Assembly: GCF_001463885.1 (NCBI RefSeq)
Contig: NZ_BBWQ01000011.1
Span: 124,001 to 188,000, forward strand
DNA: 64,000 nt
Reading direction: 5' to 3'
DNA from: Aureimonas altamirensis
Lineage (GTDB): Bacteria; Pseudomonadota; Alphaproteobacteria; Rhizobiales; Rhizobiaceae
Under the pieces are notes generated by a model. That model searched no databases and was not told the DNA's origin. It saw only the letters and a list, made by a program, of their open reading frames with translations. Made by a program: the position numbers and the translations under genes. Positions 32,175-40,254 of this stretch are shown in pieces; position 1 is the first letter of the stretch; the number at the start of each line of letters is the position of its first letter.

Positions 32175-33782
32175 ATGGGGAAGGATGTACTCGTGGTCGG
32201 GGCGGGCCCCGTCGGACTGACGATCGCACTGGAGCTGACGCGTCGGGGCGTGCCGTGCAGGATCGTCGACCGGCTGGCGCAACCCCTGCCCTATTGCCGC
32301 GCCATCGGGGTGACGCCCCGCACCCTCGAAGTGTGGGACGCCATGGGCCTGGCAGACGAGATGATCGGGTCCGGCCTCTGGCTGCGCGGTATGCGATCGG
32401 TAATCGCCGGTGGCCCGACGCAGGACATGATCCGGCCGGAACTGCCCATACCCTACGCGGAACTCGGCATTCCGCAGTACGCAACGGAAGCGATACTGAC
32501 GCGGAAGCTGACGCTTCATGGCGTCACGCCCGAGCGCGGCATAGCGCTGACCGCGCTGTCGCAGGACGCGAGCGGCGTTACAGTGACCCTGTCGGGCGAT
32601 GCCGGCGCGGAAGAAGCGCACTTCGCCTATGTCATCGGTTGCGATGGGGCGCACAGCACGGTGCGCCGTCAGATCGGCGTCGGCTTTACCGGCGATGCCT
32701 TCCCCTGGCCCTTCATGCTGGGCGACGTGCATATCGCATGGGACCTGCCCTACGGGATGGCGCTGCGCGCGCTGCGCCTGCACGAGGACGGGCCACCCGA
32801 CATGTTCATCGCGATCCCGCTGCCGGAGGCAGGGCGCTACCGCATTTCCATGCCAGCCCCGCCCACGATCGTCCCGCCCGGCGGAACCGACCACGGCATA
32901 CAGGCGGATATGCCCGGCCCCGCGCTGCCCGATCTGCAAGCCATCGCGGACGACCTTCTGCCCGGCCAACCGCTCCTCTCCGACCTCAGATGGTCTTCCA
33001 TCTTCCGGATCAGCCTCAGGCTTGCGGACAGCTATCGCGTCGGGCGTGTCTTTCTGGCGGGGGACGCCGCCCATATTCATCCCCCTACGGGCGGCCAGGG
33101 CATGAATACGGGCATACAGGACGCCTGGAACCTGGGCTGGAAGCTGGCCGCCGTGTTGCGCGGAGGCGTCGATGCCGGCCTTCTGGACAGCTATGAGGCC
33201 GAGCGGCGCCCGGTCGGCGCCGCGGTTCTGGAACGGACCCGGCAGGCGAGCCTCAGCTATGGGCGGGAACAGGGCAAGCCCGATCCTTACGCCGATACGC
33301 AGATCCGCATTTCCTACAAGGGCACGGCCTTCATAGACGAGGACGCGCCGGCGGCCGGCCCGGACGAGCCCGTCGCCGGGGATCGCGCGCCGGACGCCGA
33401 CGGCCTGTTGCGGCGCGGTTTCGGCTTTCCGCTGCGCCTGTTCGATACATTGCGCAGCGGCCGGCCGACGCTGGTGGCAATGGCCGACACGGCAGAGGTG
33501 CATGCGTGGCGGCAGACGCAGCCGCAGCACCTTGCCGAGCAACTTGGCATCGTCTGCATAACCGCAGGCGATGCCGTGCCCTGGCCGGAAGGGCCCGGCA
33601 TCGTGCTTCTTGCGGATGCGGCGGAAAGCTTCATCAGTTCCTACGGGCGCAGCGCACGCTTCTGGCTGATCCGGCCGGACGGCTATATCGGCTGGCGAGG
33701 CACCAGCCTCGACCAGCCAGGGCTTGCAAGGCAGCTCAGCCGCCTATGTTCGCCGGCCGCTTGCGGATTATCGGCATCGTGA
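32175..33782 (+). CDS. FAD-dependent aromatic-ring monooxygenase (UbiH/PheA/TfdB family)
   Basis: A 535-residue flavoprotein. It has DVLVVGAGPVGLTIALELTRRG (FAD dinucleotide fold) at the N-terminus, VIGCDGAHSTVRRQIG (DG motif, about 180-195) and RVFLAGDAAHIHPPTGGQGMNTGIQDAWNLGWKLA (GD motif, about 292-326). A C-terminal thioredoxin-like domain occupies about 410-530. The last 12 codons fall inside the left 38-bp repeat. Before the islet came in, the frame would have ended two residues later at TGA 40257-40259, so the present C-terminus differs only in its tip. Probably part of the catabolic cluster continued at 40.2-43.4 kb. Confidence 0.9.
   Translation: MGKDVLVVGAGPVGLTIALELTRRGVPCRIVDRLAQPLPYCRAIGVTPRTLEVWDAMGLADEMIGSGLWLRGMRSVIAGGPTQDMIRPELPIPYAELGIPQYATEAILTRKLTLHGVTPERGIALTALSQDASGVTVTLSGDAGAEEAHFAYVIGCDGAHSTVRRQIGVGFTGDAFPWPFMLGDVHIAWDLPYGMALRALRLHEDGPPDMFIAIPLPEAGRYRISMPAPPTIVPPGGTDHGIQADMPGPALPDLQAIADDLLPGQPLLSDLRWSSIFRISLRLADSYRVGRVFLAGDAAHIHPPTGGQGMNTGIQDAWNLGWKLAAVLRGGVDAGLLDSYEAERRPVGAAVLERTRQASLSYGREQGKPDPYADTQIRISYKGTAFIDEDAPAAGPDEPVAGDRAPDADGLLRRGFGFPLRLFDTLRSGRPTLVAMADTAEVHAWRQTQPQHLAEQLGIVCITAGDAVPWPEGPGIVLLADAAESFISSYGRSARFWLIRPDGYIGWRGTSLDQPGLARQLSRLCSPAACGLSAS
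33731..33768 (+). repeat. Left copy of a perfect 38-bp direct repeat bounding the rhamnan islet
   Basis: Begins GCAGCTCAGCCGCCTATGTT and is identical over 38 bases to 40217-40254. Identity stops at 33730/40216 and at 33769/40255. Read on the minus strand, it also encodes the last residues of the MHS transporter (RKRPANIGG and stop), here without the rest of that gene. Confidence 0.95.
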
Positions 33783-33971
33783 AGACCTTCCAGGCCAGTG
33801 CAATTCTGCAACTTCTGGGTGCAAACGTATGTATCAAGTACAGGTTATTCGCCCCAGTACCGTAGATAACGGCATTCACATTGCCTTTGATTACCAGCCT
33901 GATTAGATGCGGCACGCTGCCGAAGGTCCTTCGCCGCACATACCGACATGCTGACGAATTTGAGAGAGACT

Positions 33972-34949
33972 ATGACCAAGACGGCGTTGATAACCGGCAT
34001 AACGGGGCAGGATGGAGCCTATCTTTCGCAACTGCTGCTCAGCAAGGGCTACGAGGTTTACGGCATCCTGCGCCGATCCAGCACGGCCGAAGTCAACGAT
34101 GTACGCCTGAAGTGGCTCGGTATCGCAGACAAGGTGCATCTGATCGACGGCGATCTTCTGGACCTGTCGGGGATTATGCGGGCGGTTCGCGATACAAAGC
34201 CGGACGAGGTCTACAATCTTGCGGCGCAATCCTTCGTCAAGTCGTCCTGGCAGCAGCCTATCCTGACAGGCCAGGTCACGGCGCTGGGCGTCACCAACAT
34301 GCTCGAAGCTATTCGGATAGAGCGGCCGGAAGCCCGCTTCTATCAGGCATCTTCGTCTGAAATGTACGGCATGATCCAGGAGGATATGCAGTCCGAGACG
34401 ACGCCCTTCTATCCCAGGTCACCCTACGCGGTCGCCAAGCTTTATGGTCACTGGATCACGGTCAATTACCGCGAAAGCTTCGGGCTGCATGCATCCAGCG
34501 GGATCTTGTTCAACCACGAGTCCCCCCTGCGTGGCATAGAATTCGTGACCAGAAAGGTTACCGACGCCGTTGCGCGCATCAAGCTCGGTCTCGCATCCGA
34601 ATTGAGGCTCGGCAACATCGATGCAAAGCGCGACTGGGGCCACTCGCGCGATTATGTCGAGGCGATGTGGCTGATGCTCCAGCAGGACGTGCCGGACGAC
34701 TATGTGATCGCCACGGGGCGCACCGTTACGGTCCGCGATATGTGCCGTATCGCCTTTGCTCACGCCGGACTGTCCATGGAGGATCATCTCGTCATCGATC
34801 CCGCTCTCTTCCGTCCGGCCGAGGTCGATATCCTTCTCGGTAATCCGGCCAAGGCGAAAGCCCGGCTCGGTTGGGAGGCGAGCACATCGCTGGAGGACAT
34901 GATCGTCGAAATGGTCGATGCCGACGTCGCGCGGCTAGGGCGACATTGA
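33972..34949 (+). CDS. gmd: GDP-mannose 4,6-dehydratase
   Basis: Converts GDP-D-mannose to GDP-4-keto-6-deoxy-D-mannose. The 325-residue extended SDR has [17 protein letters not shown] (cofactor site, 7-23), [19 protein letters not shown], the catalytic Y152 and K156 (PYAVAK) and [16 protein letters not shown], all diagnostic for GMD. I chose the ATG at 33972; an in-frame ATG at 33948 adds eight residues. The reductase follows after 21 bp, so together they make a GDP-6-deoxyhexose. Confidence 0.95.
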
Positions 34950-34970
34950 TCGGGATTTCGGAGCCTCTCG

Positions 34971-35891
34971 ATGATTAGAACGCGCGTAGCGGTCACCGGC
35001 GCATCCGGGTTCGTCGGGCGATGGCTTATGGCGCATCTCCAGTCGCTGGGCGTCGACGCCGTGCCCTTTTTCGACAATTCCGGCGTGGGTCTGGAAGACG
35101 CCGCAGCAATCCGGTCGATACTGGCGACCCAGAAGCCGGACACCATCGTGCATCTGGCGGCGGTAGCCGCGCCGGCGGATGCACGAAAGGCTCCCGTAGC
35201 CGCGTTCGATACAAATGTGATCGGCACGTTGAACCTCGCGTCGGCCATACTGGATATCCGTCCGCAGACGCGCCTGATCTTCGCCGGCAGTTCCGAAGCA
35301 TACGGTCGATCCTTCAACACGATCGCTGAGCCATTGGACGAGACCGCTCCGCTGGAGCCGCAAACCCTGTACGGCGTAACCAAGGCTTCGGCCGACATGT
35401 TGCTGGGGCAGATGGCCGCCGACGGATTGCAGGTCGTTCGGTTCAGGCCATTCAACCACACCGGTCCCGGACAGTCGGAATCCTACGTCGTTCCGGCGTT
35501 TGCGCGCCAGATCGCCTTGATTGAGGCCGGACGGCAGGAGCCGGTCATCGAAGTCGGCGACCTGGAGGCCGAACGGGACTTCTCCGACGTGCGGGATATC
35601 GTGCGTGCCTACGCACGCGCTGCCACGATGGACGACCCGCTCCCGGCGGGCGTTGCCGTCAACCTGGCAAGCGGTATGCCGCGTCCGATCTCCGACGTCC
35701 TTTCCCGGCTTCTGAAGATGAGCCGGCAGCCGATCGAGGTCAGGACGGATCCGATGAAGCTCGGCCCGGTCGGCACGCGCCGTGCCGTGGGGAACGTAAC
35801 CCGCGCGAGCGATCTTCTAGACTGGCGCGTCGAGATACCATTCGAGAAGACACTGCAGGACGTGCTGGAAGCGTGGCGGACCAATCGGTAG
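34971..35891 (+). CDS. rmd: GDP-6-deoxy-D-mannose reductase (GDP-D-rhamnose forming)
   Basis: A 306-residue SDR that reduces the GMD product at C4 to GDP-D-rhamnose. RVAVTGASGFVGRWLM is the cofactor site, FAGSSEAYG holds the catalytic Ser, and Y134/K138 (LYGVTK) complete the triad. The FRPFNHTGPGQ block and DVRDIVRAY match RMD rather than the L-fucose synthase WcaG. The GMD/RMD pair is the standard route to D-rhamnose in bacterial A-band-like polysaccharides. Confidence 0.9.
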   Translation: MIRTRVAVTGASGFVGRWLMAHLQSLGVDAVPFFDNSGVGLEDAAAIRSILATQKPDTIVHLAAVAAPADARKAPVAAFDTNVIGTLNLASAILDIRPQTRLIFAGSSEAYGRSFNTIAEPLDETAPLEPQTLYGVTKASADMLLGQMAADGLQVVRFRPFNHTGPGQSESYVVPAFARQIALIEAGRQEPVIEVGDLEAERDFSDVRDIVRAYARAATMDDPLPAGVAVNLASGMPRPISDVLSRLLKMSRQPIEVRTDPMKLGPVGTRRAVGNVTRASDLLDWRVEIPFEKTLQDVLEAWRTNR

Positions 35892-40166: not shown

Positions 40167-40173
40167 CGACTAT

Positions 40174-40202
40174 GGGAAAGCCCCGTGCGAGGAGGCTTTC
40201 CC
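40174..40202. terminator. 9-bp-stem hairpin near the right end of the islet
   Basis: GGGAAAGCC (40174-40182) pairs perfectly with GGCTTTCCC (40194-40202) around an 11-base loop, 15 bp before the right 38-bp repeat. It could end MHS transcription running into the islet, though no clear T-run follows on either strand. Confidence 0.45.
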
Positions 40203-40216
40203 TGTCATCGTTCAGT

Positions 40217-40254
40217 GCAGCTCAGCCGCCTATGTTCGCCGGCCGCTTGCGGAT
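40217..40254 (+). repeat. Right copy of the 38-bp direct repeat
   Basis: Identical to 33731-33768. This copy is the authentic 3' end of the MHS transporter gene, whose stop codon lies at 40222-40224. Confidence 0.95.

Follow-up and report, generated by a model that had tools for sequence, protein, structure and literature searches.

Homology-facilitated illegitimate recombination has been described (PMC3240628), and for the immunity-gene arrays of the Vibrio type VI secretion system (T6SS) it has been proposed that modules are gained through homology together with an illegitimate joint (PMC5361080). Here, we examine a 64,000-nucleotide stretch of Aureimonas altamirensis (assembly GCF_001463885.1, contig NZ_BBWQ01000011.1, positions 124,001 to 188,000; hereafter the window), in which the four genes of a putative glycan cassette lie between the two copies of a perfect 38-bp direct repeat, with a flavin adenine dinucleotide (FAD)-dependent monooxygenase gene to the left and an MHS-family symporter gene to the right. 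The original prediction, made from the letters of the window, took this arrangement for an inserted islet bounded by the repeat and perhaps moved by an integrase acting in trans. We lean towards another explanation, in which the locus is a mosaic of two recombined allelic layouts and no mobile element is needed to account for the repeat; a mosaic event of this sort is of an already known kind. From the Aureimonas literature on polysaccharides and genomic islands, two papers came up that were off topic, judged by title and opening of the abstract, and no further search was made for the repeat or the locus.

A direct repeat formed by gene ends

The repeat occupies positions 33731-33768 (left copy, plus strand, placed by the repeat search and the genome scan) and 40217-40254 (right copy, minus strand, placed by sequence comparison). 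Direct comparison bore out the predicted identity of the two copies, which is 100% over 38 bp, and the repeat search of the window lengthened the pair to 41 bp with one mismatch. It is the sole exact plus-strand repeat of at least 20 bp in the window, and all plus-strand 20-mers that occur more than once there (19 of 19) fall within it, which excludes a chance origin. The genome that carries the window (the focal genome, a 4.19-Mb draft in 32 contigs) holds exactly two copies at up to three mismatches; a degenerate form had one match in each of two congeners and none in the other 18 congeners scanned. A dispersed repeat, which the original prediction had named as a finding that would speak against it, was thus ruled out. 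A phage source was also set aside, as a degenerate 35-base core of the repeat had no exact match in viral contigs.

Both copies are coding sequence. On the minus strand, the right copy holds the 3′ end of the MHS gene (encoding KRPANIGG, with the stop at 40222-40224) and a further 5 bp. On the plus strand, the left copy presents this sequence in antisense and supplies the final codons of the gene for the FAD monooxygenase, which run antisense through an MHS 3′ end. When the flanks were joined across the repeat, the result was an FAD frame ending in ...CSPAACGS, with its stop just beyond the repeat. That the pair is an assembly artefact is unlikely, because the left joint exits the repeat into the cassette and not onward into MHS.

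Empty and occupied sites in relatives

At the 203,696 positions for which all three genomes could be aligned, the focal genome was 91.5% identical to one relative (G005) and 89.0% identical to a second, Aureimonas altamirensis A31 (G012), with 88.9% identity between these two, so that the focal genome and G005 look like sisters. In G005, the FAD and MHS genes are directly adjacent, convergent and overlapping, with one copy of the repeat (three mismatches) and no cassette, which is the uninterrupted relative that the original prediction had called for. The FAD gene there ends in ...QLNRLCSPAACGS and the MHS gene in ...RPVNIGG. The G005 alignment reaches 33771 on the left side and resumes at 40218 on the right; both parts fall on a single continuous G005 sequence, where they share 40 bp. 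Five FAD homologues (L120 and L122-L125) each have a distinct ending near the repeat position, from which we infer that the FAD/MHS overlap arose when, at some early time, the FAD gene became fused to the end of MHS. Because G005 and A31 diverge some 5-7 bp beyond the MHS stop (they are similar for only ~7 bp, with 6 of 7 bases matched by eye), the fusion point would coincide with where the repeat begins on its left, 5 bp beyond that stop.

The A31 genome is occupied, with the cassette glycosyltransferase at 125277-128453 of contig NZ_JAMQCO010000001.1. Its gene order is FkbM, a minus-strand acylase-like gene of 816 aa, the cassette and MHS, with no FAD match, and it has a single copy of the repeat with five mismatches. 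The alignment to the focal genome begins at 33780, crosses the cassette and continues into MHS; a cassette that stands beside a single copy of the repeat indicates that paired repeats are not needed by it. The acylase-like gene (L053:5654-8104) had a weak match to PvdQ, far under the cut-off, and at E<=1e-100 was found in one of the seven genomes tested, namely A31, and in neither the focal genome nor G005. Direct repeats of at least 22 bp were absent from the A31 stretch (L053:5000-19001). Among the five scanned loci that carry genes for GDP-mannose 4,6-dehydratase (GMD) and the probable reductase that acts with it (RMD), none had a bracketing direct repeat of at least 22 bp (A31 L053 and L056-L059, with L060-L062 left out). 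One of these five stretches contained a 103-nt repeat pair with a spacing of 249 nt, located away from GMD and RMD, and the other four contained none.

These results bear on site-specific integration in trans, under which the 38-mer would be an attachment core at a gene 3′ end and the cassette would have been moved by an integrase encoded elsewhere. Such integration would account for the use of a gene 3′ end as a target that insertion regenerates and for the clean single-copy site in the sister genome, and the focal genome has, elsewhere, five matches of the tyrosine-recombinase type and two of the resolvase type that could in principle act in trans. However, all seven recombinase matches lie on contigs other than that of the window, the A31 cassette has one copy only, and no further copy of the site was seen in the focal genome, in the other 18 congeners or, as an exact 35-base core, in viral contigs; nor did any bracketing repeat appear at the A31 locus and the four other GMD/RMD loci scanned. 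Integration in trans has little positive support, which is limited to the empty site and the gene-end position, and we regard it as unlikely. What holds of the islet reading is the empty site and the patchiness of the cassette, which a nucleotide search recovered in full in 2 of 21 genus genomes, the focal one included. The repeat as the boundary of an integrase-moved element was not supported, given that the cassette in A31 sits at the same place beside MHS with one copy and another left neighbor, and the boundary repeats expected around cassette genes at other loci did not appear in the scan. Conservation of the same gene order with both repeats across several genera, which had been offered as a ground for abandoning the islet, was not seen.

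A transposon with a target-site duplication found no support: there is no transposase inside the repeats, and the four inner genes are glycan genes by Pfam. Among the inverted pairs in 33720-40265, none of the 25 longest of 135 joins both ends, although very short termini would be possible.

A probably recent duplication

The bases of the repeat itself allow its age to be considered. The focal repeat differs from that of G005 at positions 1, 9 and 22 and from that of A31 at positions 1, 3, 9, 20 and 22, and at positions 9 and 22 both focal copies agree with each other against G005 and A31. The change at position 22 turns a valine of the MHS protein into alanine, and the valine is kept in G005, A31 and a further congener (G038). 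Position 9 is not polarisable, as G038 has the wobble base of the focal genome, and position 1, which is specific to the focal genome, was not counted as informative because it could be a chance extension. Since both focal copies share a valine-to-alanine codon change that is absent from three relatives, the comparison of these bases dates the 38-bp duplication as younger than the split of the focal genome from G005, unless conversion equalised the copies.

This dating weighs on the possibility that the paired state is ancestral, with G005 having lost the cassette through recombination between the repeats and A31 having exchanged FAD for the acylase-like gene. The exact empty site in G005 is the product expected of such an excision. 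Nevertheless, both focal copies share bases that are absent from G005 and A31, and copies that predate the split of the focal genome from G005 should differ, the chance of finding no difference in 38 positions at a divergence of 7.5-8.5% being ~0.03-0.05, unless, again, conversion equalised them; we therefore hold an ancestral pair to be very unlikely. The least likely of the explanations considered is that the 38-bp stretch of convergent gene ends is a recombination site for the entry and exit of a recombinase-free glycan cassette, with repeated cycles through a single-copy state keeping the repeats identical.

A proposed mosaic of two allelic layouts

In the reconstruction that we favor, two layouts would have recombined. 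Layout E, seen in G005, has the order FkbM-FAD-MHS, with FAD and MHS convergent and overlapping, and layout O, seen in A31, has the order FkbM-acylase-cassette-MHS, with a hairpin kept downstream of MHS. Sequence of an E chromosome would have been joined to the left end of an O cassette at ~33768 through one illegitimate joint, and the other side would have been made by homologous recombination in or near MHS; we infer in this way both the direction of the exchange and its donor. The novel joint (J2) spans 33768-33780, where G005-like sequence stops at 33771 and A31-like sequence begins at 33780. The 38-bp repeat would then be the MHS 3′ end, with one copy from each parent, and would be bounded on the left by the point of the old FAD/MHS fusion and on the right by the illegitimate joint.

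The surroundings of the cassette are of mixed affiliation. Between 27 and 43.5 kb of the window, identity falls in most intervals of the alignment and the relationships shift along the sequence. At 28001-30000, the focal genome is nearer to A31 (138 and 140 sites per kb versus 62 and 81), and these two kilobases take ranks 1 and 3 in likeness to A31 among 201 1-kb intervals; at 31-32 kb, in the FkbM gene, it is nearer to G005. Nucleotide identity to A31 is 77.5-87% for the cassette genes and 91% for MHS. Judged by the alignments, the region is a hotspot of divergence and mosaicism.

At 28001-30000, we also observed that the G005 allele is strongly diverged, with 72-78% identity to the focal genome, and that the focal genome and A31 are 79-87% identical, a sign of import near the hotspot.

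Under the favored reconstruction, the sequence that naturally lies downstream of MHS should be present to the right of the cassette. A terminator-like hairpin, which has no clear T run, lies there at 40174-40202 on the minus strand, ~20 nt 3′ of the MHS stop, and its fold has a z of -3.31, with 1 of 200 shuffles as good. A31 has a hairpin in similar placement that is weak (z -1.33, 19 of 200 shuffles as good), and one was recognized by eye in G038. As the hairpin sits 20-25 nt past the MHS stop in the focal genome, in A31 (weakly) and in G038, the right side would seem to be the native MHS end.

Several observations count against a mosaic origin. In the 60 bp past the MHS stop, similarity between the focal genome and A31 was not significant (141 of 2000 shuffles as good), compared with 40 of 2000 for the focal genome and G038 and 2 of 2000 for A31 and G038, so that homology to the right of the cassette is clear within MHS and not in these 60 bp. 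The 87-base spacer at 40130-40216 had no A31 match at E<=1, and outside its own place nothing convincing matched it in the 21 genomes (the best non-self E being 0.04). Together, the poor match past the MHS stop and the unmatched spacer leave native continuity on the right not proven. Furthermore, informative sites within MHS show no clean switch from parent to parent, the history is drawn from only three genomes, and the patch at 28-30 kb may instead be an import into G005, which in that patch is distant from the focal genome as well as from A31. The chief difficulty lies in the bases specific to the focal genome that occur in the right copy, for which a conspecific donor or a crossover within the repeat would be needed.

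This difficulty is where an illegitimate insertion with target duplication fares better. An E chromosome would have suffered a staggered break in its FAD/MHS overlap and taken up a cassette fragment there, and fill-in and end joining would have placed the 38 bp on either side, which accounts directly for the focal-specific bases common to both copies and fits those in the right copy without the assumption of a conspecific donor. The shared FAD-overlap-MHS arrangement of the focal genome and G005 also makes a recent ancestor of E type probable, and Ku, which acts in end joining, is encoded in all three genomes tested. With such an insertion, however, it would be a coincidence that the left edge of the repeat falls at the FAD/MHS fusion point, and the hairpin would stand at the native distance from the MHS stop by chance or have come with the fragment. 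A stagger of 38 bp is also long, which counts against it. We treat insertion with target duplication as a possible but lesser explanation and give it about half the weight of recombination between the two layouts.

Genes of the cassette and its flanks

The predicted cassette content of GMD, RMD, a huge glycosyltransferase and an RgpF-like gene was confirmed by Pfam, NCBIfam and the nearest solved relative, with RMD as a probable assignment, and none of the four inner genes is a recombinase by Pfam, in agreement with the original prediction. GMD (33972-34949, plus strand, in an open frame from 33948; TIGR01472, PF16363) passes the TIGR01472 cut-off narrowly, at 416.1 bits against 415, and has 95% amino acid identity to A31. 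By similarity, it is adjacent to the gene for a probable GDP-4-keto-6-deoxy-mannose reductase, RMD (34971-35891, plus strand; PF01370), for which the closest solved structure is 2pk3, a GDP-6-deoxy-4-hexulose reductase (E 1e-54), and for which no NCBIfam model reached its cut-off. The 1060-aa glycosyltransferase (35939-39121, plus strand) has a GT2 domain at its N end (PF00535, residues 11-177) and a GT4 domain at its C end (PF00534, residues 860-970), and is 86% identical in amino acids to that of A31. The RgpF-domain protein (39108-40166, minus strand; PF05045) probably has its real start internal to the called frame, because similarity to A31 begins only at residue 32. The likely product of GMD and RMD is GDP-D-rhamnose, as GMD narrowly passes its cut-off and RMD is closest to 2pk3, and the cassette probably adds rhamnose to a surface glycan. 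Its GC content is 0.58-0.63, compared with mostly 0.65-0.69 leftward, and the right edge has no sharp GC change.

At the protein level, the 1060-aa glycosyltransferase matched a sequence in G019 with 52% identity over residues 3-754, where the match was cut by the end of the stretch, and one in G082 with 33% identity over residues 686-1051. GMD/RMD pairs occur in other settings in other genomes; in seven such stretches (L056-L062) the RgpF protein had no match at E<=1e-15, and the large glycosyltransferase was partially matched in two. A pattern scan for close glycosyltransferase relatives across 84,980 species genomes returned one that was confirmed, A31, from a set in which records near that of the window may have been left out. 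A plasmid source was rejected: of 72,556 plasmid records, 647 match within 33700-41500, and in none of them does a single place account for 80% of the query. The eight plasmid matches listed comprise one or two genes each at 71.5-75.2% identity, and six plasmid records reach 80-90% identity over parts of the query.

To the left of the cassette, the FAD-dependent monooxygenase gene (32175-33782, plus strand, in an open frame from 32091; PF01494, PF21274) fell far short of the cut-off of each named NCBIfam monooxygenase model listed. It is preceded by an FkbM-family methyltransferase gene (31113-32090, plus strand; PF05050, TIGR01444) that is also present in G005 and A31, with nucleotide identities of 84% and 75%, respectively, so that the focal allele is G005-like. 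To the right, the MHS-family metabolite/H+ symporter gene (40222-41520, minus strand) scored 436.8 bits with TIGR00883, slightly below the cut-off of 443.45, and is followed by a gene for a malate/lactate/ureidoglycolate-type dehydrogenase (41520-42542, minus strand; best model NF007504, under cut-off). FkbM methyltransferase genes are common in glycan loci, and the outer genes, which had been described as a catabolic unit, are not purely so on the left, where FkbM adjoins FAD.

Farther right, an 8.2-kb stretch (43386-51600), to which nothing aligns at the corresponding place of G005 or A31, ends at tRNA-Met (51601-51676). It encodes a LacI regulator, a sugar-binding protein, an ATP-binding cassette (ABC) permease, a GH4 glycosidase and a protein with an NYN domain. 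The gene for the latter is bracketed, in the manner of a small tRNA-site islet, by an imperfect 27-nt direct repeat (85%) at 50255-50281 and 51591-51617, the second copy of which overlaps the lower-coordinate end of the tRNA-Met gene.

Comparison with known systems

If the mosaic origin is correct, a perfect flanking repeat, which is usually taken for the footprint of an integrase or a transposon, can come from overlapping gene ends when allelic layouts recombine, and the locus would be a warning for the calling of genomic islands from repeats. It would also be a compact example, with empty, occupied and mosaic forms, of how surface-glycan genes may change hands.

The likely pathway resembles that of GDP-D-rhamnose synthesis in that GMD just meets its NCBIfam cut-off and RMD is nearest to 2pk3, and differs from GDP-D-rhamnose and rhamnan systems in its GT2-GT4 gene, which among the 21 genus genomes had a full-length relative only in A31 by nucleotide search. 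With cis-mobilizable and integrase-borne islets that have att repeats, the locus shares a direct repeat at a gene 3′ end and an empty site in a relative; unlike them, its four inner genes include no recombinase, A31 carries the cassette with only one copy, and the site did not turn up anywhere else. Relative to the T6SS arrays of Vibrio, the module here is a glycan cassette, and the event is reconstructed from only three genomes. A further likeness is to homology-facilitated illegitimate recombination, with which the proposed event would share one homologous side and one illegitimate joint, and through which a module would have been gained and the old layout partly kept; it would differ in that the piece kept here is a 38-bp gene end, and the outcome is a direct repeat.

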